IMG/VR virus record: IMGVR_UViG_3300045012_000018
Coordinates: 1-47,188 of that record
DNA from: a virus
DNA: 47,188 nt
Direction: 5' to 3' (one strand)
Below are positions 9,042 to 32,276 of the stretch, piece by piece (the first letter of the stretch is position 1; the number at the start of each line of letters is the position of its first letter). Below the pieces are notes generated by a model that was not told where the DNA came from, did no database searches, and saw only the letters and a program-made list of their open reading frames with translations. The translations under genes and the position numbers were made by a program.

Positions 9042-12000
9042 TTAATACGCTGCTGCTGAGAACTGAATCAAATCTCCGCTTGTAACCGTTCCCGTCAAAG
9101 TGCAGGTTGTCGTGCTTTTTGCCGTCTGCGTGAAGGTATCGGCAGGGGTTGTTATATCCGCCGCCGAACAGCGGAACCCGTTGATCGCCGTTTCCCCCGG
9201 CGTGATGACTACCGTACAAGTTCCTGAAGCCGCATTGAAACTGCCGGAAAACCCATTGCCAAGCTGAGAGGTAACTGTCCCGCAGCCCGTGATTGTAGGC
9301 ACTGCATTGGGTGCCATATAGTCGATATAAAGCCCGGTTGTGCCAGAGACGTGAGTGCCGACATTGACGAAGCGCGGCTTGATGATGTTGTTATTGGTCC
9401 CAACCGTAGAGGCGATGCCGTTCGTCAGGTTGTTTAACTGGATATCGGTAAAGGTGTTGGAGTCGGCTGTCCCGGTGCCTTGAATCGATATTCCTGTTTC
9501 CGTGACCGAAGTTCCCGGCGTCCCATTGATGGTGATCCCGGAGAAGTGATTGTCGGAGGTATAACACCCTCCCGCCAGCGTGCAGCGTTCCTGAATGCCG
9601 TAGAGCGTCGATGTCAGCGACCCGTAGATTCCGACCGGGAAGTTGATCGTAATCCCACTGAAAGTGTTATTCCACGATCCAGTCTGCACCGTCCCTGTGC
9701 CCGTGCAATTGCCCAGCCCGGTAACGGGAAGTACAACAGAAAAAGTTCCAGAGATGCGGTTGTAGTTCGTGTTGATGACCGTATACGGGCCTCCGCCGTA
9801 GCCAGAAGGTGTATAGCTTCCGCCGAAGTAAACCGTAGCAGGAGGCTGCCATGCGGCCTGCAACGGAGGAGTGGTAACCGTGTAGGTTGCGATGTTCCCC
9901 GACTCACTGCATGAGGTGATAGCCTGTACCGCACCCGCAGCCGCGGCAGAAACTTCAAGCCCTGCCGTGACGCCGCTGGTTGAACTCTCGCCAAAGCCGT
10001 TGATGGTCACGCCGCTTAGGGTGCTGTTCGACGTGCTGCTGAAGATAATTCCTTCGCTGTTGCCCGGACCCTCGCCGTTGATTGTGCCTCCGGTGATGTC
10101 GATGTTGTTGTCGAGGATGAACTCCCACATCGTATAGTTTTGGGCATCGGAAACCCCGGTATTCGATTCGCAGACTCCAAGGTCGAATCTGGAATCCCTT
10201 ACTCCCTGAAAAGATCCGCAGTTAGCAATATTGCCAGACAGAAGAGTGAGGTTCGGCCCATAGATGATATCCGTGGAAGCGTAGCCGTTAAATTGGCCTA
10301 ACTGCACCGTCCAGCATTCTCCGGTGGAGCAGTTCGGGCTTATTAGGGTGTTATGCGCGATGATCCCATGAGAAATCTGCGTGGTCAGTCCCTGGGATTC
10401 CAACTGAAGCGTCGCTGGTCCACCAGATCCGCTCAGGGTAATGGCCGAACCATCGAAGGTATTGTTTTCAATATCGAAGTACTCGATATCCTGACTGAAC
10501 TGCAAGGGGAAGCCGTTGGCTCCGCCGATGATGGTATTGTTCAGGACTCTGAAATTGGATGGCCCGGTCGCTCCCGAATTCAACCCTGTAAACGTGAGCG
10601 AGTTGCCGTCGCAGTTGTGGACGTAATTGTTCTGGAATATGACTTGGGTTGCGGCAGTAGAAAACGTGATACAGGGTCCGGTAAATGATCCGTTGTTCCC
10701 GTCATATGCGATGCCGTCGATAATGGTGTTTGATCCGGTGATGACAAAACTTCCATTGCTGCCGGGAAATCCACCAGTGGAGTTGTAAGACTTCTTGATG
10801 ACCGCGCCCTGGGCAAAGGACTGAATCGTGCATCCGGCAGTGCTGATGGTCAACTGCCCGGTATGCTTGTAAAATCCGCCTCCGGTATTTGGCGGCAGAT
10901 AAACCGTCCCGCCACTACAGTTCGTGAATGCTTTATTCAGCGCTGTTGTGGAATCTGCCACGCCCGTCGGATCAGCTCCATATCCCGGTCCCGTGACATC
11001 AATCCACGGACGAGGGCCTGCGACTGAAAAATTTGCATTGTAATTAAGCGTAGTCCCATTTTCAGTAAGCCCAGATGAGCCGCTGACATTGCTCCCAGTG
11101 CTCGGATACTCCGCGACCTGATGGATGGTGCCAGGGCTAACCCCACCTCCAGTACCGCAATTAGACCCCGCCGTGAGGACTCCAGAAACAAATCCCGCGC
11201 AATTGTTCCCAGCGCCAGCCAGCGAAAGCGTCCCGGCCTTGTAGGAATATGGGCAAGTGGAATCCCCTCCGACGCCATGAGAATTCGCTCCTGACCCCTG
11301 CTGATACCAGTGGCACGCACTCCCGATGGTCCCATCCTGAATTGATATCGCTCCGCTTCCAGTAAGGCCTCCCTCGGAATGCACAAACGTGCTCTGGCAG
11401 TTATTCTGGAAGCCAACCTGATTTGCCAGCGTTCCCGTGGTTTCCATCGTGCCATCGTAAAAGTTGTTATCCCGGCAGAAGTTGGTGTTGTCGCCCAACT
11501 GCACGATTACTGGCGGTTGAGACGATCCAGTATTGGAAACGTCCACATCGTAAAACGCATTCTCGCTTGCATTGCCAGTCACTTTGATGCTGGGAGAGGT
11601 AGAACTCCCTACCGTGTTGACCTCAAAGCTGCATTGATGTGCCGAGTTTTGATTCACTACTTCATTGGTGTGAGTTTGTTGCAACCAAAGCTGCGGCCCG
11701 CCATTGTTGAATATGCGCGAGTTGAGGCAGGAATTGTATATTCCAGAAGAACTTGCGCTGTCTGTAATTAACCATCCCGTGCCTGTAAACCCAGTGATCA
11801 TGGAGCTGTCAATCACTCCGCCCTGCGAACCCTGCATCACAATGCCATCGGTATTTGCTTGCCCTCCGCTCTGCTTTAATACGCAGTTTCGGAATGAGAA
11901 TCTTGACCCGTTTTGCACCGTGACTGCCGACTGATTGGCAATAGATGGAGCGAACGTCAGGACCGTCCCCCCTCCATTCTGATCCGATCCATTGACGCAC

Positions 12001-12482
12001 TCGATTGTGATTGGCGAGGAAGCCTGAGAGAACACCAGACCGGAAGTGAAAGTTTGGCTCTTGGTGACGTAGATGTGGCAGCCAGCCGATGAAGATGGAC
12101 ACTTCGCTACCGCCTGAGCTAAGGTGACCAGGGTTCCGTCCGCAGCGAAGATGCCATTGATATTGGCGTTGGGAATGATATTCAGTGCATTTAAGGTCAA
12201 GGCTCCAGTCGAAGAATTGAAGCTGGAATTGGGAATCGCCGTGAGCCTTCCAGAAAGGTTTCCCTGCAATGAAAGACTGGGCGCTGCCGCAGATGCGGCT
12301 CCGAAACACGGCGCATTGTTCAACAAGCAGCTTCCCGTGATAGTGAGGTTATTGGCGAAGATATTCCAAGGCTGGTTACTGCGTCCCAGGTTAAGGCCGG
12401 GGCTGGCTGGGATCACGTCGGTATTTATCTGCTGCCCCGCTAATGGGATCGACAGCAGACACAGCAGCAACCATTTCCTCAT
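9042..12482 (-). CDS. Tailspike/receptor-binding protein with signal peptide and two beta-helix regions (1146 aa)
   Basis: A signal-peptide-like start, MRKWLLLCLLSIPLAGQ, is followed by an adaptor-like module (VIPASPGLNLGRSNQPWNIF, about 23-50). This module resembles the start of the 385-aa tail gene. Residues about 120-400 form a first parallel beta-helix. A second pectate-lyase-like region begins near 493 with WIDVTGPGYGADPTGVADST, typical of capsule- or LPS-degrading spikes. The C-terminus is Ser/Thr/Gly-rich with many Cys. GGAGGCCAACA precedes the ATG, which overlaps the upstream stop. A secretion signal on a tailspike is unusual; the predicted job is host surface binding and glycan cleavage. 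Confidence 0.85.
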   Translation of the reverse strand: MRKWLLLCLLSIPLAGQQINTDVIPASPGLNLGRSNQPWNIFANNLTITGSCLLNNAPCFGAASAAAPSLSLQGNLSGRLTAIPNSSFNSSTGALTLNALNIIPNANINGIFAADGTLVTLAQAVAKCPSSSAGCHIYVTKSQTFTSGLVFSQASSPITIECVNGSDQNGGGTVLTFAPSIANQSAVTVQNGSRFSFRNCVLKQSGGQANTDGIVMQGSQGGVIDSSMITGFTGTGWLITDSASSSGIYNSCLNSRIFNNGGPQLWLQQTHTNEVVNQNSAHQCSFEVNTVGSSTSPSIKVTGNASENAFYDVDVSNTGSSQPPVIVQLGDNTNFCRDNNFYDGTMETTGTLANQVGFQNNCQSTFVHSEGGLTGSGAISIQDGTIGSACHWYQQGSGANSHGVGGDSTCPYSYKAGTLSLAGAGNNCAGFVSGVLTAGSNCGTGGGVSPGTIHQVAEYPSTGSNVSGSSGLTENGTTLNYNANFSVAGPRPWIDVTGPGYGADPTGVADSTTALNKAFTNCSGGTVYLPPNTGGGFYKHTGQLTISTAGCTIQSFAQGAVIKKSYNSTGGFPGSNGSFVITGSNTIIDGIAYDGNNGSFTGPCITFSTAATQVIFQNNYVHNCDGNSLTFTGLNSGATGPSNFRVLNNTIIGGANGFPLQFSQDIEYFDIENNTFDGSAITLSGSGGPATLQLESQGLTTQISHGIIAHNTLISPNCSTGECWTVQLGQFNGYASTDIIYGPNLTLLSGNIANCGSFQGVRDSRFDLGVCESNTGVSDAQNYTMWEFILDNNIDITGGTINGEGPGNSEGIIFSSTSNSTLSGVTINGFGESSTSGVTAGLEVSAAAAGAVQAITSCSESGNIATYTVTTPPLQAAWQPPATVYFGGSYTPSGYGGGPYTVINTNYNRISGTFSVVLPVTGLGNCTGTGTVQTGSWNNTFSGITINFPVGIYGSLTSTLYGIQERCTLAGGCYTSDNHFSGITINGTPGTSVTETGISIQGTGTADSNTFTDIQLNNLTNGIASTVGTNNNIIKPRFVNVGTHVSGTTGLYIDYMAPNAVPTITGCGTVTSQLGNGFSGSFNAASGTCTVVITPGETAINGFRCSAADITTPADTFTQTAKSTTTCTLTGTVTSGDLIQFSAAAY

Positions 12483-13441
12483 TGTTGGCCTCCGAGAGCC
12501 TGACTCTGTAACGCCGCCTTCGCTTTCTGTCCTGCTGTCATCTTGGCCGATGGAACCCTGCCGATAAGATTCGTTTCGTACCGCCCCTTGATCTGGTTCG
12601 CGTGAAAACTTCCCTGCGATTCCGATGCCTGATAGCTCTTGTACACCTCTGGCGGGACGCCTTTGTACTCGTACACGTTGCCGTTCTTGAACTGCATGAC
12701 CATGCGCTGGTTGGCCGCGTCATAGCCATGCTGGGCAATCGTTGTTGATTGCGCTGGTTCCATCGTTGGAGTCTGTGGAATGACGCCCTGCACTGCCGGA
12801 ATCTTCATCGGCTCCGGCAAAGGAACATTCTGCTGAGGTTCCAGATGTACTATCTGATACCTGTCAGCCGCTATCGCTTCGGGCGTAGCAGGGGCAGAGG
12901 CAGCACTAGGTTCGGCACTTTTTCCAGCCATAAAGAACGGCAGCATCTCCGATCCAGGAGGAATGTATTTCCCTAAAGGTAAATGCTGGCGTGCATAGTT
13001 AATCCCCTCGCTAGCTGCTACATACGGGAGAGATTGTATTCCGGCTTTGGCGGCAGTCTTTAGCCCGGTCAACACCGAACCAGCATTCAGACCAGCATAG
13101 GGAGCCGCCGCGCCCGCAGCACCAATTGCCGCCGCGCCGAGTAACTTTCCTTGCTGATCTGGATTGTCCAGCGCGAATTGTTCCGCTGGCTGCGCTGGAT
13201 TAGCTATAGCGCTGCCCGTGTGATCTGATCCTAACGCGGTTCCAAGGTTAGACTTCTGCATCTGAATATTCGGCTGGGCTGGTCCAGACATGGAACTCAG
13301 GCCACGAAGGTGCATCAGATAATTAATCTGGTCCTGCGGCCCCGCCTTCGCAAAATCAGGGTCAGTCTGAGAGAGATAGGCCATCTGGTCATGCGGAGCA
13401 GCCGCCATGAAATCAGGATCAGTTGTGGGATCACCGGGCAT
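12479..13441 (-). CDS. Virion-associated protein with C-terminal KTSC domain (320 aa)
   Basis: ATG 13441 was chosen because it overlaps the upstream gene by only 11 nt; the frame is open further back. Residues 8-44 contain two copies of a DPDF-x2-A-x-P-x-DQ-x2-YL repeat. The middle is Ala/Gly/Pro-rich with hydrophobic stretches, as in ejection proteins. Residues about 238-294 (RMVMQFKNGNVYEYKGVPPE, then a SQGSFHANQIKG ending) match the KTSC domain, a small beta domain found in phage and bacterial proteins. Probably a virion or tail-tip protein. Confidence 0.7.
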   Translation of the reverse strand: MPGDPTTDPDFMAAAPHDQMAYLSQTDPDFAKAGPQDQINYLMHLRGLSSMSGPAQPNIQMQKSNLGTALGSDHTGSAIANPAQPAEQFALDNPDQQGKLLGAAAIGAAGAAAPYAGLNAGSVLTGLKTAAKAGIQSLPYVAASEGINYARQHLPLGKYIPPGSEMLPFFMAGKSAEPSAASAPATPEAIAADRYQIVHLEPQQNVPLPEPMKIPAVQGVIPQTPTMEPAQSTTIAQHGYDAANQRMVMQFKNGNVYEYKGVPPEVYKSYQASESQGSFHANQIKGRYETNLIGRVPSAKMTAGQKAKAALQSQALGGQQ

Positions 13442-14765
13442 TTTGTCGCGCCTTCCACGCTGCGAATCCTCCAGTTGTAGGCGGGGTGGATGGCGGTGGA
13501 TTAGCACCGCCTCTCAGCTTTTGCACCGCCGCATTCGTTGCCCCGGTGGCGTAATCGTTAAGCATCGAGCGGGTTTCCTGCATAGCTCCGCGCCACGCGT
13601 CCGGTCCTTGATTGATTCCCATCGTGTTTTTGAAATCATCATAGATTTCACGGGAAGTCCGTCCGGTATGGGCACGCATGGCGGCGCTACTTGTATAACT
13701 CGCCGCCGCCCTAAGTTTTCCGATGTCTTCCTTGTCCTGCGCTGGCAAAGTCGGATCCACCAGTCCGTTGCCGAAAATCCAGTTCTCGATCTTATTGGAA
13801 GCGACGTTGCCGAGAACGCCGCGAGCCTCAAGGCGCTGCATGGCAGCCTGTGCGTCGTCGAGCCGATTCAACCCTGATTGAGCAAAAGCTGCTGTCTGCA
13901 TCATGGCTGCTGGGGCTTTCCCTGCCGACATCTGGGCCACTTGCAGTTTGGTCTGATTATCTTGCGTAGTTTTCCATTGCTGGTAAGCCTGAGACTGGCG
14001 GAACATATCCAGCTTATTCTGCTGTGATGTCGCGGTAGGCGCTGCTCCCATCTGGGTAGCCTCAGCCAGCTTCGAACGGTATGTATCCATGTCGCCGCTG
14101 GTATAGGCTTGCGAGGCATCGTTTAGCACAGATTGCAGTGGATGGGTAGCCTGAGCGCTCTGGTCCTTCATGCTCTGGACCTGGGTAGCCGTATCGCCCT
14201 TCATGCCTTGCACTTGCAGGCGATTGGCCGCTGCTACCTGCCCCGCATAAAAAGTCTGCGCGTGATTGGCTGGCAGGGAAATAACCTTCCCGGTGGTTGG
14301 GTCGGTAATCGGTTTACTATCTAAACCCACGAGCGGTACCGGGGCATACTGTGCCGCCATTGACTGATGTAAAGATGCCAATCCCTGAGAACTGGTCAGC
14401 AGGGAGAGATTGGTCATCGCCTTCTGCTGTTTGTCGTATTCCGTGGGAAGTCCGGCTTCGTGAACCATTGACTGCCCCATGCCGCCGATGAAGTTCTGCA
14501 AGAAGCGCTTAATCGGGCCGCCAGACGGTCCTTGCTGAGGAGTGGCCTGTTGGGCGAGGGACTGCTTTAACTGCTCTATTTGATCGGGTTGCTGGCCCTG
14601 CTGTTGTTGGCCTTGCTGAGGAGCAGGTTGCCCCTGCGGAGCGCCCTGTTGGGATTGCTGAAGCAATTGGGCAATCTTCTGCGGCCCTCCCTGCGCTGCC
14701 TGATCTATGTCATCAGGTTGCTGCAAAGCTGACTGCATTCCCGGAATTCCAGCGAATCCGCCCAT
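13431..14765 (-). CDS. Q-rich internal virion/ejection-type protein (444 aa)
   Basis: The N-terminal 90 residues are extremely Gln/Pro/Gly-rich. The remainder is helical and Ala/Gln-rich with AQYAPVPLVGLDSKPI and repeated QVQSMKDQSAQ-type helices. Together with the next gene upstream it resembles the DNA-ejection proteins of P22-like phages in composition and position between tail hub and spike. The assignment rests on composition and order, not on a recognised domain. Confidence 0.6.
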   Translation of the reverse strand: MGGFAGIPGMQSALQQPDDIDQAAQGGPQKIAQLLQQSQQGAPQGQPAPQQGQQQQGQQPDQIEQLKQSLAQQATPQQGPSGGPIKRFLQNFIGGMGQSMVHEAGLPTEYDKQQKAMTNLSLLTSSQGLASLHQSMAAQYAPVPLVGLDSKPITDPTTGKVISLPANHAQTFYAGQVAAANRLQVQGMKGDTATQVQSMKDQSAQATHPLQSVLNDASQAYTSGDMDTYRSKLAEATQMGAAPTATSQQNKLDMFRQSQAYQQWKTTQDNQTKLQVAQMSAGKAPAAMMQTAAFAQSGLNRLDDAQAAMQRLEARGVLGNVASNKIENWIFGNGLVDPTLPAQDKEDIGKLRAAASYTSSAAMRAHTGRTSREIYDDFKNTMGINQGPDAWRGAMQETRSMLNDYATGATNAAVQKLRGGANPPPSTPPTTGGFAAWKARQNAR

Positions 14766-21321: not shown

Positions 21322-21558
21322 TCAGTTGATTCGGCGGTCTGCCGCGCCTTGGCCTGTCAGTTGCTCCAAGGTCGTCTGAAGCATCGCTCCCAGCAGTTTC
21401 GGGTCGTTCGTCTCCGAGCATAAAACCTCCACTCCGCTGCCCATCGGTTTATTGGGGTCAGATTTTTGATCCAGCATAACAATCAATACCATGTAGCCGT
21501 CACGCCTGAGTTCGTCGATTGCGGCGTCCAGCGCCCGCTTTGTATGCTTGCCCATCAT
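21322..21558 (-). CDS. Small alpha/beta protein (78 aa)
   Basis: Its start overlaps the glycosyltransferase stop (ATGA). KRALDAAIDELRRDGYMVLI and a later strand suggest a small alpha/beta fold. It ends 2 nt before the next gene. No family recognised. Confidence 0.6.
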   Translation of the reverse strand: MMGKHTKRALDAAIDELRRDGYMVLIVMLDQKSDPNKPMGSGVEVLCSETNDPKLLGAMLQTTLEQLTGQGAADRRIN

Positions 21559-22256
21559 GCCAGCACCGCCTCTTGAGCCATCATTGGATAGGAATCTTCC
21601 GGCAGGCGGAATCCTTTCCCGGATTCATAATCCCAATGAGTAGGCAGAATCCAGGCATTCGCCAGAGCCTTAAATCCATGCAGCTTCATCTTGGCAAAGA
21701 AGAATGCATCGTCCGTGCAGGAGACTGTCAGAGTATCCACATCGCGGAACCATGGCTTAGGAATCTTTTTGAATACTTCCGTTTTCCACAAAGAGCATCC
21801 CAAGCCAATAAGCTCGCATGGGAATATCGTGTCTTTCTTCCACCGCCAGTACGCTCCCAGTCCAATATCCTGAAAGACGACAGGCTCGCACGGGTTCTGC
21901 TTTGTGACGTAAATCCCCCCTGCAACCATAACGTCTTCATCCGCCGAAGCCAATGTTTGCATAAGGTGGCGGCAGGTTCCAAAAGGAAGCTCCACGTCAT
22001 CGTCCACAAACATCACGTATGGAGCTTTTAATTCCAGAGCGCCGTCAACTATGTATTCCGCCGCTAAATCCCTCGGCAACCCCTCGCTCCCGGTTTTAGG
22101 GTTTGAGCAATGAACTGGAGCGTAAGCCACATTCACGCCCATGCCAAAGTTCTGTGTCGCCAGCCCAATGGCCCACTCTGGCGTTACCAGACGCGAGGAG
22201 CGGATCCCGACGACAACTCCGACTCTGGGTATCAATTGGCCGTTAACGTCGATCAC
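21555..22256 (-). CDS. Glycosyltransferase, GT-A fold, GT2-like (233 aa)
   Basis: GTG 22256 overlaps the upstream stop (GTGA) with GCGAGG in good position. The protein has the N-terminal strand PRVGVVVGIRSSRLVTPEWA, the metal-binding DxD segment PYVMFVDDDVELP, the acceptor-side VMVAGGIYVTKQNP and a later CTDDAFFFAKMKLHGFKA, consistent with a GT-A nucleotide-sugar transferase. Placement inside the virion module suggests glycosylation of capsid or tail proteins; acting on host surface sugars is the alternative. The sugar donor cannot be read from sequence. Confidence 0.8.
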   Translation of the reverse strand: MIDVNGQLIPRVGVVVGIRSSRLVTPEWAIGLATQNFGMGVNVAYAPVHCSNPKTGSEGLPRDLAAEYIVDGALELKAPYVMFVDDDVELPFGTCRHLMQTLASADEDVMVAGGIYVTKQNPCEPVVFQDIGLGAYWRWKKDTIFPCELIGLGCSLWKTEVFKKIPKPWFRDVDTLTVSCTDDAFFFAKMKLHGFKALANAWILPTHWDYESGKGFRLPEDSYPMMAQEAVLA

Positions 22257-22816
22257 GCGGTAAACCTCGCCCAATTTTCCGAATCCCTTGAGGGCGGTCC
22301 AAACATAGCATATGCGCCCGATTCGGTGATAATGTTCTTTCGGATAAGCCGCATTAAAACGCGCCGCCAGCCAGGGATGATTCCTTTCGGCGTTCCGTCA
22401 TCATTCTTCACCCGTAAGGTAAATTCAGGGCTATCTTCAGCCTGCATCCCGCAGAGGAATTCCTTGTCTTGTCCGCCCTTTCCGTCATTCTTGAGGAGAT
22501 AGATTCCCAGTTGTTCGGGGGCGGCTTTGGAGCGCTCGAACCAAAGATTGCGATTAAGTTTCTTCAGACGAGCCGCGACCTTCCAGCCCTCAAGAGGTAT
22601 GCCCACGATCTGCTCCCAATCGGAGGTGTCTTCCATCGCTCCATCGGAGGCCAGAGCGTTAGCCTCATTTTGCCTGTATTCCTTCTGGCAGGCTCTTTGG
22701 TAAAGCAGTCGTAGTTGGGTTTCGGTGACTTCTCTGCGCTTTTCGGGAGATAGGGACGGCACGCCAGCGGTAACTTTCTGACGGTCGTCCCTATATTGTT
22801 CGAGCAATGCAGCCAT
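22253..22816 (-). CDS. Head-module hypothetical protein (187 aa)
   Basis: A helical N-terminus (EKRREVTETQLRLLYQRACQ) precedes an alpha/beta C-terminal half including GIPLEGWKVAARLKKLNRNL and GIIPGWRRVLMRLIRKNIIT. It is located between decoration-like proteins and the glycosyltransferase. No family recognised; a virion or assembly role is likely from context. Confidence 0.6.
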   Translation of the reverse strand: MAALLEQYRDDRQKVTAGVPSLSPEKRREVTETQLRLLYQRACQKEYRQNEANALASDGAMEDTSDWEQIVGIPLEGWKVAARLKKLNRNLWFERSKAAPEQLGIYLLKNDGKGGQDKEFLCGMQAEDSPEFTLRVKNDDGTPKGIIPGWRRVLMRLIRKNIITESGAYAMFGPPSRDSENWARFTA

Positions 22817-23928: not shown

Positions 23929-24108
23929 CTAGGAAAACTTCTGTTGCGGGAGAGACGTTTTGTACAGCATATCCCGTCTGACCCAGTCTGAATCTGTCGA
24001 ACTCCTTGCTCCTGGATCGGCATAGGCAGGTCCGGGAGGAACCGCTCGCGGATCAACTGCACCGCTCCCCGAAGTCTGCCCGTCGCCGTTATTGAGATGA
24101 AGGGCCAT
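23929..24108 (-). CDS. Small protein coupled to the major capsid gene (59 aa)
   Basis: The ATG overlaps the capsid stop codon (TAATG), so translation is very likely coupled. The protein is Gly/Pro/Asp-rich and flexible (SGAVDPRAVPPGPAYADPGA), ending in DWVRRDMLYKTSLPQQKF. It could be a capsid-associated peptide. A 61-nt gap with a GAGGGAGGACC site follows before the next gene. Confidence 0.6.
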   Translation of the reverse strand: MALHLNNGDGQTSGSGAVDPRAVPPGPAYADPGARSSTDSDWVRRDMLYKTSLPQQKFS

Positions 24109-25178
24109 TACACCAAGCTCGCATCTGCGGTCACGATCTTGAAACGGAGGTTGACCGTATCCAGAGTCTTTGCCGCAAAGACGAACCGATAGCTCACGTA
24201 GCTGGCGATTTCACCAACCGGATCAGCCGGGGAAGGCCCACCCTTGACCATATTCAGAGTGAATCTCTGTTTCCGGGGATCGACAACCTGATCTGGACCC
24301 CTCCCGGTCAAGTTGACGATCCCGATTCCACCCGAACCCATAATGTAGGTCGAGTAGAGAACGTTGGGCACGGCTCCAGAGGTGCCGACATTGGTCGAGG
24401 TCAGCAAACGGCACATGCCGATTTCGCCCACTTCGCCCTGAAGCACCTGACGGCCCGCCATGTATTTCAATGCGTCAATGAATCCGCCAGCAGTGTTGTC
24501 GGAGATCAAGTCATAGACCACGTAGGGGTGAATGACCGAGAAAAAGTAGTTGTCGAAGCGTGGCCGGACGTTGATGCCCAGAAGCAATGCCACGTTCGAT
24601 TTGAAGTCTGCCGCTGAAAGATATGCCCCCAGAGTGGAAACCTTTGCAGAGGTGTTGGAGTCGATCTCAGTCCTGATAATGGTATCGACCGTTCCAGTCG
24701 CCCGGTAGGACAAATCATCCGCCATGCGGTCGTTGGTCGGGTTGATGTCGGTTTCGGTCAGGAGCGCAGAAGCGCTCATGAAATCGGAATACTGCTCGAC
24801 CGTGGCCGATACGGTGGTGGTTGCCTGTGGAACCGGAGCGCCAATCACGCCTTCTGCCGCTGGCTGAGTATTGAATCCAGGCAGCGTGTAGCGATTCATT
24901 TGAATCGTCCGGCCCGCGCCTTGGGGAATGTCGTGAGGCTCGCAGACCTGATAGAAGCGGAACATTGCTTCCAAACGCTCAAGAGATCGGCGCTCATAGT
25001 AAACCGTCGCAAGGTGGGTAAATCCCGGCGATTGAGTCGTCATGCCTGCTGGCGCATAATCGCCGCGTTCGCAGGTCAAAAGTTCTACGAGGGAAATAAA
25101 ACTTGTGCGCTGGATAATGAATTCAGCGACATGCAGCGCTAGGCCGACTGCGAGGACAAGCAGAAGTACTTGGAACAC
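24108..25178 (-). CDS. Major capsid protein, N4-gp56 family (356 aa)
   Basis: The core from about residue 46 has features I associate with the N4-gp56 family: YYERRSLERLEAMFRFYQ, GAGRTIQMNRYTLPGF, then AEGVIGAPVP and TTTVSATVEQYSDFMSAS, and SYRATGTVDTIIRTEI. This HK97-fold protein builds the head. GTG 25178 lies 7 nt after a perfect GGAGG and adds 45 residues with a hydrophobic helix (QVLLLVLAVGLALHVAEF). The usual family start would be ATG 25043 (MTTQSPGF), which lacks a good ribosome-binding site. The stop overlaps the next ATG. Confidence 0.9.
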   Translation of the reverse strand: MFQVLLLVLAVGLALHVAEFIIQRTSFISLVELLTCERGDYAPAGMTTQSPGFTHLATVYYERRSLERLEAMFRFYQVCEPHDIPQGAGRTIQMNRYTLPGFNTQPAAEGVIGAPVPQATTTVSATVEQYSDFMSASALLTETDINPTNDRMADDLSYRATGTVDTIIRTEIDSNTSAKVSTLGAYLSAADFKSNVALLLGINVRPRFDNYFFSVIHPYVVYDLISDNTAGGFIDALKYMAGRQVLQGEVGEIGMCRLLTSTNVGTSGAVPNVLYSTYIMGSGGIGIVNLTGRGPDQVVDPRKQRFTLNMVKGGPSPADPVGEIASYVSYRFVFAAKTLDTVNLRFKIVTADASLV

Positions 25179-25305
25179 ACACACCTCCGATGAAGTCTTG
25201 TTTTCGGGGTGCTCGACGTGGAACTCACGATCAGGCGACCGTTATTCAATTCGCCACGTCTGGAACTCAGGCGGGATATTCGCAGGGAATGCCTGCTTGA
25301 AAAAG

Positions 25306-25314
25306 ACTATAGCA
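25306..25314 (-). promoter_or_regulatory. Extended -10 promoter candidate for the capsid operon
   Basis: On the minus strand the sequence reads TGCTATAGT, an extended -10 element with one mismatch, about 120 nt upstream of the capsid start. No good -35 is present. It faces away from the HNH promoter, so the two form a divergent pair. Confidence 0.35.
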
Positions 25315-25337
25315 TACGATGTCCATTATTCGACTTG

Positions 25338-25346
25338 TGTTATAAT
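25338..25346 (+). promoter_or_regulatory. Extended -10 promoter, leaderless HNH transcript
   Basis: TGTTATAAT is a perfect extended -10 element. The HNH ATG begins 7 nt after it, where transcription itself is expected to start. There is no room for a ribosome-binding site, so the mRNA would be leaderless. Confidence 0.65.
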
Positions 25347-25353
25347 GCTATAT

Positions 25354-25758
25354 ATGACGATTGAGGAAAGGTTCTTGGCTAAGGTTGCGCGGGTCGCTGG
25401 GTGTTGGAACTGGACGGCCTGCTTAAATAATCGAGGCTATGGAGTTTTTGGTGTTAGCGATGGAGAGGTAATTAATGCTCATCGCTGGTCTTATCAGAAC
25501 TGGATTGGACCGATTCCAGAAGGGCTAGAAATAGACCATTTATGCCGCAATAAGCAATGCGTAAATCCTGCTCATCTCGAAGCGGTAACGCATCTTGAAA
25601 ATATGCGCCGCTCTCCTATTGCCGTGCAGACCCATTGCAAGAGAGGACATTCTTTAGATGACGCATATCCTTCAAAACGATCTGATGGGAGTTTTTCTAG
25701 AAGATGTCGTCAATGCCACAAGGCGCTGCTCAAGAGAAAACGAAATGCAAATCATTAG
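25354..25758 (+). CDS. HNH homing-type endonuclease (134 aa)
   Basis: The protein contains AHRWSYQNWIGPIPEGLEI, then DHLCRNKQCVNPAHLEAVTH: Asp61-His62, Asn71 and His74 form the HNH active site with a paired Cys64/Cys69. A C-terminal HCKRGH ... RRCRQCHK zinc-type element follows. It lies on the opposite strand between the Fn3 gene and the capsid gene, as expected for a mobile, free-standing endonuclease. The ATG was chosen because it matches the family start and sits directly behind the -10 element. Confidence 0.9.
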   Translation: MTIEERFLAKVARVAGCWNWTACLNNRGYGVFGVSDGEVINAHRWSYQNWIGPIPEGLEIDHLCRNKQCVNPAHLEAVTHLENMRRSPIAVQTHCKRGHSLDDAYPSKRSDGSFSRRCRQCHKALLKRKRNANH

Positions 25759-25769
25759 ACCGTCAAGCC

Positions 25770-25848
25770 CACCCTTGCGGTGCCGTCTCAGCTTTCGCTT
25801 TAGGAAGAGGTGCGCTGCCTTGGCTGGCAGTTCTTCCCCGCAAGGGTG
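25770..25848. repeat. Inverted repeat between convergent HNH and Fn3 genes
   Basis: An 11-bp perfect inverted repeat (CACCCTTGCGG at 25770-25780, its complement at 25838-25848) encloses 57 nt that hold a second small hairpin (CTGCC/GGCAG, 25815-25830). It fills the space between two converging genes and may act as a structured terminator region or a remnant of HNH insertion. No U-tract is present on either strand. Confidence 0.4.
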
Positions 25849-25854
25849 TTGTGG

Positions 25855-26163
25855 TTAAACTATCACAGCGGAAGCCCCGGTTGGCGCCGTTGGCGCTCCC
25901 GGCCAGATAGCGGCGATCTCTGTACCGTAGGCCGATTCACCGTCTGTGGTAACCGTGCTGATGACGTAGTAATAATTCACGCCATTGGAGAGATTTCCCG
26001 GCCCATCCTGATACGTCGTAAGGATGTTGGTTGATGCTGAAGTCATGCCAGGATTAGGATTGGATTGACCGACAAGCTGGTATGGACCTCCTGAAAATGT
26101 GGAGCGGTACACTTTGTAGTAAAGCGCGTTCGGTACCGCTCCCCAACTCAGGTTGACCTGCAA
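25855..26163 (-). CDS. Fibronectin type III domain protein, apparently permuted (102 aa)
   Basis: The sequence is a clear Fn3 module: VNLSWGAVPNALYYKVYRST, then GVNYYYVISTVTTDGESAYG. The strand A signature (PTAPTGASAVIV) stands at the C-terminus and not at the N-terminus, as if the frame were cut from a tandem array. The first codon is TTG directly behind the TAA of the Ig-like gene and in the same frame, with no ribosome-binding site of its own. Stop-codon readthrough or reinitiation from the Ig-like gene is therefore likely. Such domains on virions are thought to bind surface carbohydrates. Confidence 0.7.
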   Translation of the reverse strand: MQVNLSWGAVPNALYYKVYRSTFSGGPYQLVGQSNPNPGMTSASTNILTTYQDGPGNLSNGVNYYYVISTVTTDGESAYGTEIAAIWPGAPTAPTGASAVIV

Positions 26164-26580
26164 TTAGCCCCTCTTCGCATTCGCAACCGGAATCACTGCC
26201 GAATCGTTTACGTCGATCAGGATCGTACCAGTGCCAGCGGTCGCTGCCGTGCCTGAGACGATCAGGTTGTTGTTCTGGTCAATTCCCACCGTGACGCCGG
26301 GAGGAAGCTGATTCGGACTGGAAGCATCCACTGAAGCCGTGTAGGGCGGAACTCCGCCTGTGATTGGGGTCAGAATGTCGCTGCCCTGCGTATTCGCCTG
26401 AAGAGTAGCCGACCCGGAAGTCGCGCCCTCCGTCAGCGGAGTAACTGCGGGAGTGACGGTGAGTGTGAGAGTGTACTGAACTTGTGACATATTTTCTCCT
26501 AGAATGATTGTTACTAGCTCGCGCAGTTTATGAACGAGTTCGTTAAGATCGTGCTCTTTGTGGTGATGAAACCAGTTCAT
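26164..26580 (-). CDS. Ig-like domain virion protein (138 aa; internal start 26490)
   Basis: ATG 26580 overlaps the upstream stop (ATGA) and adds a 30-residue charged helix (HHHKEHDLNELVHKLRELV). A second in-frame ATG at 26490 has a near-perfect AGGAGAAAAT site and starts MSQVQYTLTLTVTPAVTP. Both starts may be used. The domain (GGVPPYTASVDASSPNQLPP; LIVSGTAATAGTGTILIDVN) has the putative-Ig repeat style of surface proteins. It is followed without a gap by the Fn3 frame. Confidence 0.7.
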   Translation of the reverse strand: MNWFHHHKEHDLNELVHKLRELVTIILGENMSQVQYTLTLTVTPAVTPLTEGATSGSATLQANTQGSDILTPITGGVPPYTASVDASSPNQLPPGVTVGIDQNNNLIVSGTAATAGTGTILIDVNDSAVIPVANAKRG

Positions 26581-26888
26581 TGCCCGAATGGCCTCGACGT
26601 TCCTTTGCTGGTTACTGTGTAGCTGTAATGCGATGGAACTGAATGCTCTTCTGCCTTTTCCCCGAAAGGCTTCAGGCCCGGAGATGAAACAGAAGCGACT
26701 GGCGCCGGTTCTTTGTCGTGCCACATGCGCCCCTTCAGTTCCGGGTGCTGTGCTTTGAATTGCTGCAAGTTGCGGTATTCTCCCAGCCTCTCCAGATAGG
26801 TGACGTTCTCAGAAACCCAGCGCGGCCTGTCCGCATCGTCGGCTGGCGGCTTCGGCTGAGTCGGTTCGATGTCTCGCGGGTCTATCAT
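26577..26888 (-). CDS. Pro-rich hypothetical protein of the head module (103 aa)
   Basis: It starts MIDPRDIEPTQPKPPADDAD, contains a short helix (NVTYLERLGEYRNLQQFKAQ) and ends in a Ser/Pro-rich tail. Both ends overlap neighbours by 4 nt (ATGA). Probably a small virion or assembly protein; no family recognised. Confidence 0.6.
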   Translation of the reverse strand: MIDPRDIEPTQPKPPADDADRPRWVSENVTYLERLGEYRNLQQFKAQHPELKGRMWHDKEPAPVASVSSPGLKPFGEKAEEHSVPSHYSYTVTSKGTSRPFGQ

Positions 26889-27355
26889 ACTTTGCTCGCT
26901 TTCGCCAGATAGTTTTCCAGTCCGGCAGTGTGAATGATATTCAATTGTTGCTCCAGATCGGCAATGTGTTGCTCGTCATCTTTAACGACGTGCTCGATCA
27001 TGCGGCGAAGGGAATCTTCGTTGGCTGTTCTGGCCGCCGAAAGGAACTCGTTAAGGTCTGTTACGCACTGACGTTCGTTTTCCAAGTCGTTCGTCAACTG
27101 CGATACTACATCGGTGCCGATGGCTGGCTTCACGCTATCCATCTTCGGCGTGACTTCGCGCTGGGCCATATAGTGGAGGGTTGATTTCAGATGGTCGCGC
27201 TCGTCGTCAATTCGACCCTTGGTATGCTTCGCCAGTTTCTTATAGCCCCAGGCTCTTTGCAAAGAATGGTGCGCCTGCATTTGGGCTATGTGCCCCTGCT
27301 TGGCAGCTATCATCTTGTGCAATCCGGTTTCTAAGCCCGTGGAAGCTAGCTTCAT
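26885..27355 (-). CDS. Bacterioferritin-like four-helix protein (156 aa)
   Basis: Length and sequence match bacterioferritin nearly without gaps by my recollection of E. coli Bfr: an AWGYKKL segment aligned with NWGLKRL, then IDDERDHLK, NDLENERQCVTDLNEFL, and KDDEQHIADLEQQLNII with GLENYL at the end. Of the diiron ligands, Glu52, His55, Glu94 and His130 are kept. The first ligand is Lys19 in place of Glu, and the fifth is Asp127 in place of Glu. The haem-ligand Met is Arg53, so no haem is expected. Start and stop overlap neighbours. It may be a virion component, an iron store or a scaffold. Confidence 0.8.
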   Translation of the reverse strand: MKLASTGLETGLHKMIAAKQGHIAQMQAHHSLQRAWGYKKLAKHTKGRIDDERDHLKSTLHYMAQREVTPKMDSVKPAIGTDVVSQLTNDLENERQCVTDLNEFLSAARTANEDSLRRMIEHVVKDDEQHIADLEQQLNIIHTAGLENYLAKASKV

Positions 27356-28056
27356 CGCTGTGGCTCCAACTGCTGCTTGATAGCCGCCGCCCGCAATTCA
27401 TCCATCTTCATGTTCCACGGCTCGTTAGGATTGGCACGGTTAGCGTCCGGGGAAGTGCCGTGAATCATCGGTGGAGGAGCAGTTCGGCTGGCCTGCTGCA
27501 TGTTATTCGCCCATGCCGAATTTATCTGTTCTGCCGTCAATGGCGCATAGCCCTTTTTGTCGTCAGAGGCGTGTTCCCTGACCAGTAAAGCATGGGCCGC
27601 CGTCATGGACTGGGTATTGAAATCCCAATGCATTTCGTCGATCTTTTTCGAGAGCGATTCGATGGCTTCAGGCGTGTTCGGGAAATCCTGATTCAGGGCG
27701 AGGAACTCAGTCGCCACAAGTTGATTATTGACCTTCTCTGTCGTTCCCTTGACTCGCGCCAGATCGGCCTTGTACTGGTCGGCATTCTCGTATCCGAGCG
27801 CTTTCGCGGTCTGCGTCAAAAGGTAATTCTGGAGTTGGGCCTCATTTGGATCTACGACTGGCTGCTGCTGAGTTGGCGGTTGCTGGACCGGAGGCGTTTC
27901 CGCCTTCTGTTTCCACTCCTGCCCCCATCGCTTCGTGGAGACGTGAGCCTCGGCCATCTTCTGCGTTACTTCGAGAGGATCGCCCTCAAATATCTCGCCC
28001 GTCTCCAACTTCGCTGTAATCTTCCCATCCGGGTGTTTCGTGATCTCGTTCGGCAT
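27352..28056 (-). CDS. Scaffold-like protein (234 aa)
   Basis: It begins MPNEITKHPDGKITAKLETG, then has a Pro/Gln-rich linker (TPPVQQPPTQQQPVVDP) and long helices (VATEFLALNQDFPNTPEAIE; KKIDEMHWDFNTQ). Place between portal and capsid gene, acidic helical nature and size fit a capsid scaffolding protein, but sequence alone does not prove this. The ATG is 11 nt behind AGGAG and overlaps the upstream gene by 71 nt. Confidence 0.55.
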   Translation of the reverse strand: MPNEITKHPDGKITAKLETGEIFEGDPLEVTQKMAEAHVSTKRWGQEWKQKAETPPVQQPPTQQQPVVDPNEAQLQNYLLTQTAKALGYENADQYKADLARVKGTTEKVNNQLVATEFLALNQDFPNTPEAIESLSKKIDEMHWDFNTQSMTAAHALLVREHASDDKKGYAPLTAEQINSAWANNMQQASRTAPPPMIHGTSPDANRANPNEPWNMKMDELRAAAIKQQLEPQR

Positions 28057-28357
28057 TTGGAGGAACACTCCTTGATTGTTCTAATAACAGAAGTCTTTCC
28101 GATTCACAAGTCTGAATGTAATTCTGAACGCCTAAAAACATCGCTTCGCGCTGCTGCCATCTGGTTTGAAGGCCAGCCTTGGCTTCGGCTGAGGCGTAAG
28201 CCGCCTTTCGCATGTCATCCAAAGCCTCTTCGACGAATGCCTCCATCTGGGCCAGAATCCGTCTCCAGCCTCCAGATTGCACCGTCTGGCATACCTCTCT
28301 AACTTCCGCCAGATGCTCCAGCTCCGTTGCCGTTAGGACTTGCGGGTGGTTGGTCAC
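27986..28357 (-). CDS. Coiled-coil protein downstream of portal (123 aa)
   Basis: GTG 28357 lies inside the end of the portal gene (59-nt overlap), and the end overlaps the scaffold-like gene by 71 nt. The chain is mostly helical (EALDDMRKAAYASAEAKAGL; QTRWQQREAMFLGVQNYIQT). No metal site or catalytic motif is seen. The long overlaps make the exact ends uncertain. Confidence 0.55.
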   Translation of the reverse strand: MTNHPQVLTATELEHLAEVREVCQTVQSGGWRRILAQMEAFVEEALDDMRKAAYASAEAKAGLQTRWQQREAMFLGVQNYIQTCESERLLLLEQSRSVPPNAERDHETPGWEDYSEVGDGRDI

Positions 28358-30488
28358 TCGGTAAAGTCAATCCTGCGTCAGCATACTCGTTCAACAGCTT
28401 GTGCGCCACATCCGGCGTCATGATTCTGTCAATCAGTGCCTTGATTAGCTGCGTTTCGTCGCGGTCGGTCGCTACCTGCTGGTGAGACTGCAAGCGCTGC
28501 TGCTGTTCCTGCATCTTCATCTGGAACTGCATCATATTCAACTGCATCATGGTCTGCTTGTACTCAGGCTCCATGGGCACCCATAGGGCCTGCGGAGGCA
28601 GAGAGAATGTGTCATTGATGATCCGCGTAACCTGCTTCAAATCGAGCCGCACTCCCTGCACAAATGCCAGTTTGTCGAGATCGGGGTTTAGTAATGTCTG
28701 GATTAGAATTCCCAATCCTCCCTGTGCCAAGGCCGCCTTGATCTTCAGTTTGCTTGAGGCGTTCATCCTGAATCTGACCCCGGCATTCATCACATCTACC
28801 GGATCAATCTGGATCATCGAGCCTTCCGGGCCGAGGACCTGCTGCATCTCGTCGAGGGGCAAAAATACCTGATTCAGCGCATGAATGATATTTAGAGCCG
28901 GGACAATGAACTGATCTTCGGCATTCTCTACGTGGTACTGTATCCGCTTCCCAGAAGCTCCCTCCTGAGTCGAGACGCCTGTTGCCGTCCTATTGGCCGA
29001 ATTGCCCCCTGAGGCAGGGGTGCCAAGGACAGCAAGGTCAGTGACTCCGGTTTTCTTCTGCACTCGCTGTTCAAGGGCCTGGACTTCGATGTAGGCGTCT
29101 TGGGTAACTGGCTGAGATTCCATCCATTTGATGTCATTTGCGGGGTCCTCCACCTTCCAGACCACTCCGGGCCTGAGTCTTTGTTGAGATGCTGAGAATG
29201 CCCGCCCTTCCTTTACAATCAGCGGGCGGTGGATCATCAGGTTAAGCTCGTCGATTCTGGCATTTACGATAGCTTCGGCTAACTTCTGGTCGCCTTCCAC
29301 CAGATCGCAGATTGAAAGCCCTGCGAAACGTGAAGGGACGTCTACATAGAACGCATCCAGAAAAGGCAGCATTCCGAACTGGTTCGGCTGGTTATAAGCC
29401 ACCCACTGCCGGCCAAGGAGCCAGACATGACGATTGGCCTGCCAGTAACGGATCACTTCCAACTGAGCCAAAGCCGGATCGACGGAGTAATCAATTGTCG
29501 GCTGGTAGGTCATTCCCCTGAAGGCTTCGAGATTCATCTTCGAGGAATCCCCCTGCGTCATTGTCTTGATCTGAGCCAGCTTCAGAAGAGCGGAGGCAGG
29601 GGGAATTTTGAAGCCTTCCGTATTGGCAAACTCAAGCACGCGATTTACAGACATCAGGTGCCGGGTCGCGCAGAATCCGCCGTCGTTGATGTTATGGGAG
29701 TTGCAGTTCGGGTCCCAGTAGAAGTCCCTGATATCCACGTTTGACAGCATGGGCCTTACGACACGCTGCATCTGCATCCGCTTCTGCACGACAGAGCGGA
29801 ACAGTCCTGTTGGAACAGCTACAGGCTCTCCGGTGAGAGGATGGGCTACGATTTGTCGAACCGGGACTTGAGTTCGGGTGAAATGATTACGTGTGATGTT
29901 TCGGTCCAGCACGCCGAACTCAACGATGCCGTTCCCGTAGATGTAGGACTGTTTATAGGCGCGTCTTGCAACCTCGCGGAGACTGAGATACTTCCCTGGT
30001 TCGCCAATGTCCTGAAGCTGCCAAGAGATGAGGTCGCGGACGGCATCGGCCTGGGCTGGGGTTGTGGAAGGCTCCGGCTCAACGTCAAACGGTAGGCGGT
30101 TGTTGTCGGGAAAAAGAGACAGCACCACAGACGGCAGCAGAGCTTCAATCTGCTCCAGAGCGAGAAATATTCCCACCGACGACCGAGGAATCTTGGTTCC
30201 TTCCCACGTTCGGCGCTGAGTCCATGCAAGGTAAAGCTGATCCGAGACTCGGAATCGCCAGTCATGGTTGATTGTTCGATAACCTTCCGCTCTTTTGAAA
30301 TCCCCAAGGGCAATTTTAGCCGCATACTCATCGCTCCATTGTTCGGTAGGCAGTTTGGGTTTTTCGCGCTCCTCGGTAGTCATGGAAGCAATTCCCGGAC
30401 CTTGAGGCAGATTGGTCGGGGCATCCGTGGCCGGAGTTGCGGCCATCGAGAAGTTTGTTAAACTGCCGTTTGCGTCATCTCCGGGCAT
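28299..30488 (-). CDS. Portal protein (729 aa)
   Basis: The size, location directly after TerL and a typical portal layout support this: wing region with WRFRVSDQLYLAWTQRRTWE, a YIYGNGIVEFG motif, DIRDFYWDPNC, PFLDAFYVDVPSRFAGLSIC and a C-terminal Gln-rich coiled region (NMMQFQMKMQEQQQRLQSHQ). It resembles the large portals of short-tailed phages. The dodecamer forms the DNA entry vertex and binds terminase. The start is 1 nt after the TerL stop. Confidence 0.85.
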   Translation of the reverse strand: MPGDDANGSLTNFSMAATPATDAPTNLPQGPGIASMTTEEREKPKLPTEQWSDEYAAKIALGDFKRAEGYRTINHDWRFRVSDQLYLAWTQRRTWEGTKIPRSSVGIFLALEQIEALLPSVVLSLFPDNNRLPFDVEPEPSTTPAQADAVRDLISWQLQDIGEPGKYLSLREVARRAYKQSYIYGNGIVEFGVLDRNITRNHFTRTQVPVRQIVAHPLTGEPVAVPTGLFRSVVQKRMQMQRVVRPMLSNVDIRDFYWDPNCNSHNINDGGFCATRHLMSVNRVLEFANTEGFKIPPASALLKLAQIKTMTQGDSSKMNLEAFRGMTYQPTIDYSVDPALAQLEVIRYWQANRHVWLLGRQWVAYNQPNQFGMLPFLDAFYVDVPSRFAGLSICDLVEGDQKLAEAIVNARIDELNLMIHRPLIVKEGRAFSASQQRLRPGVVWKVEDPANDIKWMESQPVTQDAYIEVQALEQRVQKKTGVTDLAVLGTPASGGNSANRTATGVSTQEGASGKRIQYHVENAEDQFIVPALNIIHALNQVFLPLDEMQQVLGPEGSMIQIDPVDVMNAGVRFRMNASSKLKIKAALAQGGLGILIQTLLNPDLDKLAFVQGVRLDLKQVTRIINDTFSLPPQALWVPMEPEYKQTMMQLNMMQFQMKMQEQQQRLQSHQQVATDRDETQLIKALIDRIMTPDVAHKLLNEYADAGLTLPSDQPPASPNGNGAGASGGS

Positions 30489-32276
30489 CTACCATCCAGT
30501 GACAAGATCGACTGCATTCGTCGATTCCGGCTCTTTCACACCCCACAGCCGATCCAGCAAATCCTTCAGGTCGGGGTTGATGATCTTTCCTGTCGGATTA
30601 GCGATTGTCTTTTCCATCGGCTGCACGTCCGATACTACACCACCATCCCGGTTTTGCATCGCATCCGCAATCGTATCCAGAATGTCGTCATGGGCGTACT
30701 TGGGGAACCTCATGATCTCGTTGATGATCGCCAGCTTGTGCGGTTGATTGTCGGCGAACTTGATGGAGCCGTTTCTAAACCACGGCTGAAGTCCCTTAAT
30801 GCGCTGCTGCTTGGAGGTTCGGTTATCACGGCGAATTTCCACGATGGGCAGCCATCTTTGGCGTTTGGCCATTTCCCGCTTGAGGAACGGAAGTAGCACT
30901 CTCGCATGTGCTTCTTTCTCCACCTTGACATCCACAATTCGCGGGTGAATTTTGACAAGGTTAAACAGATAATCGATAACTTCGAAAGGCGTATAGCGAC
31001 CGCGCAGCACGGACAGGATATAGAGTGTTCCGTCGTGACCGAACCCGTGCAAGTTAATGACGGTATAATCGTTATCCGCCAGTTTATTGGTACTCGGCTC
31101 CATTCCGGCGAGGTCCACGGTAATGTGGAGGTTGAGGTAGGCATACAATCCTTTCATCGCCTGAGGTGGAACCCAGACAATTTGATCCTGTGAATCTACC
31201 AACCCTGCGCTGTCCGGGATTGGGTTCATCAAATACTGCGAGCTTAAAACCGACCATCCCTGCAAAGGGTCCTCGGCAATCGCCAAAAGTCCTTCGGCAG
31301 GCAGGCGAGACGGCCATAGCGTCTTGCAGTGCTTATAGACGGCGTGAGGCTTGGGCAGATTGCAATCGGCCCTGCACTCTTCCTTGCTCAATTCTCCATC
31401 GAGGATTGCCGACTGGCGGTAGACGTAGTAGGTTTTGACTTCCTTTTTGGCCTCTTCATCAAGGACCGTTGCATATGCATCGCTGAAGTCATAGGTAGTT
31501 CCCACAAGGTACCACCATCCACGCTGATAGCCAACGGGCCGCGTATCAGACTTTGGAGCTGTTTCAAGTAAGGGCCATAGCATACCCAAATGCTGCTTGA
31601 CGGTTTGGATTTGCTCCGGTGTGCGGACGTTTTCTTTATCGACGGCATCGTCATTGTCAATCACATCGTAGTGCGTGGAAGCCACGACTGCCCCCACAGA
31701 GACCGTTCCGACAGTAGGTTCCTTGGCATTGGGTCTACGGCAATTTGGCACCGTGAACTGATCCTGGTTGCCAAAATCCTTTGCAGTCTTCGCAGGCGGG
31801 CAGAACTCAGGATACAGCCAGCGGAACATTTCGTTGTACTGGAAGTGTCCTTTGATTTCCTTGAGGAAGCCATGCACCTGATCCCCCGTGCCTGACGATA
31901 ACAGAATCCTGATGTTTGGATAGTTCAAAATCCACTGGATCATGTGGGCCATCATGACCGTGCTCTTGAGATGCCCGCGAGGCATCAGGATCAAAGTCTT
32001 CCTGAGGCCGTGAGGGGATTCCAAATCCCAAAAGTTAGGCACGACAGGCTCGTACCCTTCAATAAGCTCTTTGAAGGTGCCAGGCGAAACGTTCTGCCCG
32101 ACAAAGCGGGAATGTGTCCAGTCCCGGCCTCCCTTAAACTTCTGCAATGACCGGATTAACGGCCCGTGGACTTCAGTAGATACGTCTTTGTAGCCGAGGA
32201 CGTTGTTGGAGAGATAGAACAGCGAAGTTCTGCCATACTGCCGCATCTTTCGCCACTCTTCGATGGTGAATGGCAT
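30489..32276 (-). CDS. terL: Terminase large subunit (595 aa)
   Basis: The ATPase half has a deviant Walker A, LMPRGHLKST (about 98-106), followed by a WILNYPNIRILLSSG strand and a VIDNDDAVDKENVRTPEQ segment near the acidic Walker B/coupling region. The nuclease half has LHITVDLAG, DVKVEKEA and AHDDILDTIADAM, the Asp-rich RNase-H-like site. The enzyme cuts and pumps DNA into the head. Its start overlaps the upstream gene's stop by 1 nt. No intein or frameshift is seen. Confidence 0.93.
   Translation of the reverse strand: MPFTIEEWRKMRQYGRTSLFYLSNNVLGYKDVSTEVHGPLIRSLQKFKGGRDWTHSRFVGQNVSPGTFKELIEGYEPVVPNFWDLESPHGLRKTLILMPRGHLKSTVMMAHMIQWILNYPNIRILLSSGTGDQVHGFLKEIKGHFQYNEMFRWLYPEFCPPAKTAKDFGNQDQFTVPNCRRPNAKEPTVGTVSVGAVVASTHYDVIDNDDAVDKENVRTPEQIQTVKQHLGMLWPLLETAPKSDTRPVGYQRGWWYLVGTTYDFSDAYATVLDEEAKKEVKTYYVYRQSAILDGELSKEECRADCNLPKPHAVYKHCKTLWPSRLPAEGLLAIAEDPLQGWSVLSSQYLMNPIPDSAGLVDSQDQIVWVPPQAMKGLYAYLNLHITVDLAGMEPSTNKLADNDYTVINLHGFGHDGTLYILSVLRGRYTPFEVIDYLFNLVKIHPRIVDVKVEKEAHARVLLPFLKREMAKRQRWLPIVEIRRDNRTSKQQRIKGLQPWFRNGSIKFADNQPHKLAIINEIMRFPKYAHDDILDTIADAMQNRDGGVVSDVQPMEKTIANPTGKIINPDLKDLLDRLWGVKEPESTNAVDLVTGW

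Follow-up and report, generated by a model that had tools for sequence, protein, structure and literature searches.

What is a bacterioferritin (Bfr)-like gene doing inside the head module of a virus? The question arises from a 47,188-base virus record in IMG/VR (hereafter the window), for which the original prediction had offered three functions for the product of positions 26885-27355: an altered iron enzyme, an iron store during infection or a cage reused in capsid assembly. The open reading frame is real, running on the minus strand from an ATG at 27355 to a TGA at 26887-26885. In the window its ATG overlaps the stop codon of the upstream 238-aa gene by the 4 nt of ATGA, and its TGA overlaps the ATG of the next ORF, again via ATGA.

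The product is a true Bfr homologue, far beyond chance. It matches PF00210 (Ferritin) with E=1.2e-16 (61.3 bits against a gathering threshold of 24.5), Bfr entries of the PDB with E-values down to 1.9e-12 as a single sequence and 7e-18 as a five-member profile, and Bfr in profile-profile comparison with E=3.4e-21 over 151 columns, its full length. The AlphaFold (AF2) model (pLDDT 89, pTM 0.82) contains helices A to E, and the best 50 matches listed by Foldseek against the PDB were all Bfr (top TM 0.94, at 0.9 Å; rmsd 0.8-1.3 Å across the matches). The initial assignment to Bfr rather than to another four-helix family is therefore upheld, as is the claim of a near gap-free alignment, since only indels of 1-2 residues separate the protein from E. 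coli Bfr. By its PF00210 score and fold the protein belongs to the ferritin-like superfamily; identity to E. coli Bfr and P. aeruginosa BfrB is 28-29%, and the score against the NCBIfam equivalog TIGR00754, 64 bits, lies below the cut-off of 125.55. A Dps identity was rejected, the best 50 PDB matches listed being all Bfr and helix E being present, and so was an encapsulin ferritin-like cargo (EncFtn/EncB), for which NF058679 gave only E=0.18.

The gene lies in a late operon with the order TerL, portal, small ORF, scaffold-like gene, Bfr-like gene, Ig-like or other ORF, FN3-like ORF and major capsid protein (MCP) (Table 1). The proposed head-module setting holds for the portal and the MCP, both of which have family matches, while 'scaffold-like' holds on position only: the gene occupies the same place in the order portal, small ORF, scaffold-like gene, MCP as in SU10. 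Its 238-aa product gave no significant match among Pfam and PHROG profiles and no profile match to the SU10 scaffold or to its Tunturi_3 counterpart, and its AF2 model is of low confidence and mostly helical. Support for the Ig label comes from a relative. L001 (handles of this kind denote the contigs compared) has an Ig gene at 528-932 with Big_2 (E=3.7e-7) and phrog_215 (E=1.9e-11) matches, whereas the window ORF at the corresponding place has no family match of its own and the FN3-like ORF is without a Pfam match. The 103-aa ORF just downstream of the Bfr-like gene likewise showed no family match. On the minus strand of 24000-30600 we found no promoter-like sites, and terminator-like sites in this interval were fewer than in shuffled sequence. 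The GC content of the Bfr-like gene (51.6%, GC3 62%) equals that of its neighbours, which argues that the gene is a long-standing resident.

Table 1. Features of the window, in minus-strand order, with the basis of each assignment; phage residues are listed in the order window, L001, L005, L012, L013 where they vary
Feature	Position	Strand	Basis or remark
Terminase large subunit (TerL)	30489..32276	minus	phrog_38 E=2.6e-59
Portal protein	28299..30488	minus	PF23899 E=2.3e-20; phrog_1216 E=1.2e-23
123-aa conserved ORF after portal	27986..28357	minus	relatives in L002, L005, L045, L048
238-aa scaffold-like protein, directly upstream of Bfr-like gene	27352..28068	minus	position only
Bfr-fold gene, degenerate ferroxidase site	26885..27355	minus	156 aa; PF00210, AF2, Foldseek, relatives L001, L002, L005, L012, L013
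K19 codon (ligand Glu18 position)	27299..27301	minus	K/K/Q/K/K in five phages
E52-R53-D54-H55 codons	27191..27202	minus	Glu51 E/E/V/E/E; haem Met52 R in all; His54 H in all
Y62 codon (cage-forming Arg61 position)	27170..27172	minus	Y in five phages, R in ten bacterial Bfr; PMC3179174
E94 codon (ligand Glu94)	27074..27076	minus	kept in all five
D127 codon (bridging ligand Glu127)	26975..26977	minus	D/N/N/D/D
H130 codon (ligand His130)	26966..26968	minus	kept in all five
103-aa ORF just downstream of Bfr-like gene	26577..26888	minus	ATGA overlap; uncertain
ORF at place of L001 Ig-domain (Big_2) gene	26164..26724	minus	position relative to L001
102-aa conserved FN3-like ORF	25855..26163	minus	FN3 by eye; in all relatives covering that interval
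Major capsid protein (MCP)	24108..25184	minus	phrog_1357 E=2.3e-23; 88-93% identical in relatives

Other genes of the window deserve brief mention. An HNH homing endonuclease-like ORF (25105-25758, plus strand, PF13392 E=5.5e-15) runs opposite to the late genes and overlaps the region between the FN3-like ORF and the MCP; a similar ORF in L025 (2534-2950) lies upstream of the portal, there on the late-gene strand. At 21555-22274 (minus) a 239-aa protein is glycosyltransferase-like by eye. Its counterparts in L001 (416 aa) and L005 (410 aa) run on into a methyltransferase domain (Methyltransf_24, E=1.2e-14 in L001) that the window copy does not have. A 342-aa protein at 12479-13507 (minus) carries a C-terminal KTSC domain (PF13619, E=2e-17).

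The Bfr-like gene is fixed in its lineage, under purifying selection, as part of the late head operon. Counting the window, 6/6 IMG/VR contigs that belong to the lineage and span the slot carry it, with the same gene order as far as each contig reaches. Identity to the window protein is 79% in L001, 70-71% in L005, 65% in L013 and 55% in L012; L002 shows 81% over the part present, and as its 81 residues are identical to L001 it was counted as the same sequence, leaving five distinct sequences including the window, all from metagenome contigs. Synonymous sites are saturated (pS 0.69-0.93) while pN is 0.15-0.31, hence purifying selection acts on the protein; the gene changes at a rate close to that of the scaffold-like and FN3-like genes, above that of the MCP. 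In one contig (3300032174_000010, L019) an IS1-type transposase (10086-11021, PF03400) and further ORFs stand between the Bfr-like and FN3-like genes, and L009 begins with the same transposase sequence.

As to origin, the phage clade is placed close to bacterial Bfr without the haem Met, at the end of a long stem (1.74) and with a support of 0.755, a tree too weak to name a donor. Two scans of genome contigs with family profiles returned no relative, hence no prophage or host. The IMG/VR scan with bacterial Bfr returned one fragment; its patterns were proteobacterial, and the count is no measure of general rarity. Bfr matches in cultured-phage records were set aside as not convincing phage genes. 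Pseudomonas phage Y5 (OQ572407.1, 46449-54868, L004; unannotated and flagged UNVERIFIED) has pyrC-, peroxiredoxin- and glutaredoxin-like neighbours by eye, and Acinetobacter phage MD-2021a (CAKLQH020000007.1, L038) has zipA and ligA beside bfr; with bacterial chromosome genes flanking bfr, both records look misfiled, at least there. Two Salmonella records of 515-582 kb gave further matches.

Does the position of the gene speak for a capsid role? A broad MCP search recovered phages at MCP identities of 72%, 66%, 54% and about 50% (49-72%), in which portal and MCP are recognisable and most have a scaffold-like gene; a profile search found no Bfr-like gene on their contigs. Their slot between scaffold-like gene and MCP holds a methyltransferase, a polysaccharide deacetylase and other ORFs in L045 (3674-5887), a family-2 glycosyltransferase, a methyltransferase and, by eye, a homing-endonuclease-like ORF in L048 (2703-5962), and a family-2 glycosyltransferase in L049 (3822-5983), while L054, L055 and L066 have no insertion there; in the cultured Tunturi_3 it holds an acetyltransferase. 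Given its absence from these related phages, a single gain of the Bfr-like gene, in one branch and in an interval open to accessory genes, is the simplest account, and because the slot holds such varied cargo, a capsid role does not follow from position alone. The scaffold-capsid interval of these phages is thereby marked as an accessory-gene slot.

These observations underlie the main rival explanation, unlikely in our estimate, that the gene is a 'moron', an accessory gene directed at the host and occupying a slot of variable cargo, and encodes a dead Bfr subunit that acts in the infected cell. For example, this subunit could pair with those of host Bfr and impair their ferroxidase activity or prevent the cage from closing, which would keep iron available. 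The different accessory enzymes in the slot of related phages, the Tunturi_3 acetyltransferase included, fit this explanation, natural hetero-Bfr do include ferroxidase-dead subunits (PMC6529640), and a protein that keeps E128 and E135 while losing R61 could cap a host interface. However, the interface changes R30S/V, D56K and E60H should hinder pairing with canonical subunits, and a late position with no promoter of its own found in 24000-30600 also argues against it.

The protein has kept the five-helix fold of Bfr, and its ferroxidase, haem and key 24-mer contact residues have been replaced. We compared the five phage sequences with ten bacterial Bfr, nine of them of ferroxidase type. The by-eye ligand reading of the original prediction (K19, E52, R53, H55, E94, D127, H130) is exact: E. 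coli E18, E51, H54, E94, E127 and H130 correspond to K19, E52, H55, E94, D127 and H130 of the window, and M52 to R53. Over the six ligands the phages read KEHEDH (window, L012 and L013), KEHENH (L001) and QVHENH (L005), against EEHEEH in 9/10 bacterial Bfr, the tenth being a paralogue itself without the ligands. The full diiron set is hence absent from the lineage, which has K/Q, E/V, H, E, D/N and H at these positions. The haem Met is Arg in 5/5, and some bacterial Bfr are without Met52 too. The triple change of L005 (Q19, V52 and N127 together) is as might be expected of a remodelled core.

Could the site still hold one metal, bound by Glu94 and His130 with Glu52 and Asp127 (or by His55, Glu94 and His130), with Lys19 in place of the other? 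In favour of such an altered metalloprotein, H55, E94 and H130 are invariant in 5/5, E52 is present in 4/5 and an acid at position 127 in 3/5. Against it, L005 with Q19, V52 and N127 and L001 with N127 have not kept the site. Moreover, the nine ferroxidase-type bacterial Bfr share 31 invariant columns, of which 3/6 ligand columns and 11/25 others are retained by the phages (Fisher p=1); ligand retention thus equals background and does not point to selection for the metal site itself. We consider this explanation quite unlikely, and the earlier suggestion of an altered iron enzyme is not borne out, with three of four carboxylate ligands replaced or variable (K/Q19, V52, D/N127), retention at background level and no trace of the acidic charge of a typical Bfr.

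The contacts that build the Bfr cage have changed as well. Formation of the E. coli Bfr cage depends on an R61-E128 salt bridge: R61A and E128A variants are stable dimers, R61A being sufficient by itself, and the 24-mer relies on Y114 and R30 too (PMC3179174). All five phages carry R61Y, R30S/V and Y114D and retain E128, E135 and W35, such that of the contact set R30, R61, Y114, E128 and E135 only E128 and E135 remain. At K33, Y45, D56, E60 and E128, listed as critical elsewhere (PMC6529640), the phage residues are K/R, K, K, H and E, respectively. Another candidate is a ferritin-type cage that still works, whether a 24-mer or not, and that either serves in assembling the capsid or travels inside the head. 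The subunit fold, which retains helix E and matches Bfr with TM 0.94, and the kept E128, E135 and W35 agree with this, but such a cage must contend with the replacement of R61, R30 and Y114 in every member when R61A alone halts E. coli Bfr at dimers (PMC3179174). We judge it improbable; for the predicted cage reused in capsid assembly, the lost contacts make the cage part unlikely, while the protein may have a virion or assembly role.

The charge and surface of the protein have changed too. Net charge over the whole chain is -1 to +4 in the phages versus -7 to -16 in the ten bacterial Bfr; helix B goes from -2/-1 to between +2 and +5. In ferritins, helices B and D line the cavity; the phages no longer have H46 and E47, residues of the inner surface. 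At eighteen positions, which lie mostly in helices B, C and D, all phage sequences share a residue never seen in the ten bacterial Bfr, which argues that these residues are fixed and not drifting. That the gene is an ordinary iron-storing Bfr, an auxiliary metabolic gene like the Bfr judged functional in a Bathyarchaeia virus (PMC10904782), is scarcely credible despite the sequence homology, given the TIGR00754 score of 64 against 125.55 and the loss of ferroxidase and haem residues and of acidic charge; the iron store of the original prediction likewise finds no support, in view of replaced or variable carboxylate ligands, retention at background and a vanished Bfr-typical acidic charge.

We give about an even chance to the explanation that the product is a domesticated, dead Bfr fold, probably dimeric, that serves late as a non-enzymatic structural or assembly accessory with a head or virion partner. 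An ancestor of the lineage would have acquired a bacterioferritin and then domesticated it, with iron oxidation and storage presumably lost. Lys19 probably fills the former iron-1 site through a salt bridge to neighbouring acids; a comparable buried salt bridge is present in mammalian L-ferritin. Assembly would stop at the dimer instead of the 24-mer, and the rebuilt surface with its 18 lineage-invariant residues may bind a partner. The likeliest partner would be a head or virion component, given translation together with the scaffold-like protein and a fixed place next to the Ig/FN3-like and MCP genes. Besides the varied contents of the slot, two features of the sequence run counter to this explanation. 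First, the invariance of H55, E94 and H130 makes residual metal binding possible. Second, the cage-stabilising E128 and E135 are kept. More tentatively, and with some doubt, we suggest that a Bfr stripped of its iron chemistry and cage contacts now serves a podovirus-like phage lineage in head assembly or as part of the virion.

Among known systems, the cultured phage closest by portal, and among the closest by MCP (26% identity each), is the Tunturiibacter phage Tunturi_3, which shares the order TerL, portal, small ORF, gp4, slot, MCP but has the acetyltransferase, and no Bfr-like gene, in its slot. In the open-access literature searched, we found no dead Bfr in a phage head operon. Phage Dps genes have been reported as oxidative-stress genes in Lactobacillus phages (PMC6669764) and Gratiaviridae (PMC8008677). 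These and other phage Dps/ferritin-like proteins, including SU10_067, share the ferritin superfamily with the window protein but are of Dps type, whereas the latter is of Bfr type and encoded in the head operon; SU10_067 sits among replication genes, not in the head operon, and the Bfr-like family profile did not match it. Fold matches in BFVD comprise phage ferritins, Dps and some phage proteins named prohead protease; three of the last from uncultured Caudovirales (A0A6J7WPK9, A0A6J7WIS1, A0A6J7XDU5) match the ferritin fold over part of their length, a hint that ferritin/Dps-like domains may be fused to head genes in other phages. The Bathyarchaeia virus also has a Bfr, an auxiliary metabolic gene product reported as probably functional in Fe oxidation (PMC10904782), while the phage lineage here has lost the iron site.

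Parallels also lie in bacteria. With E. coli Bfr and P. aeruginosa BfrB (TIGR00754) the phage protein shares full-length homology, five helices, H54, E94, H130, E128, E135 and W35; it differs in E18 (K/Q), E127 (D/N), a variable E51, Arg for M52, the loss of R30, R61 and Y114 and its near-neutral charge. The heterooligomeric Bfr of Magnetospirillum MSR-1 contains a ferroxidase-dead subunit, Bfr2 (PMC6529640), likewise a Bfr subunit with lost ferroxidase ligands. Bfr2, however, keeps haem binding and works with a Bfr1 partner, whereas the phage protein has Arg53 in place of the haem Met and has lost other ligands, and its gene is the single bfr-like gene, with the only TIGR00754 match, in a record that may be a fragment. 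In the publications cited here, phage ferritin-like genes are seen as helpers in iron supply or oxidative stress; selection has retained the Bfr-like gene of the present lineage, inside the head operon, after loss of the iron-site residues, so that the name of a viral ferritin does not imply an iron function. If the protein does act in the virion or its assembly, it would be an example of a cage subunit reused beside a capsid protein.
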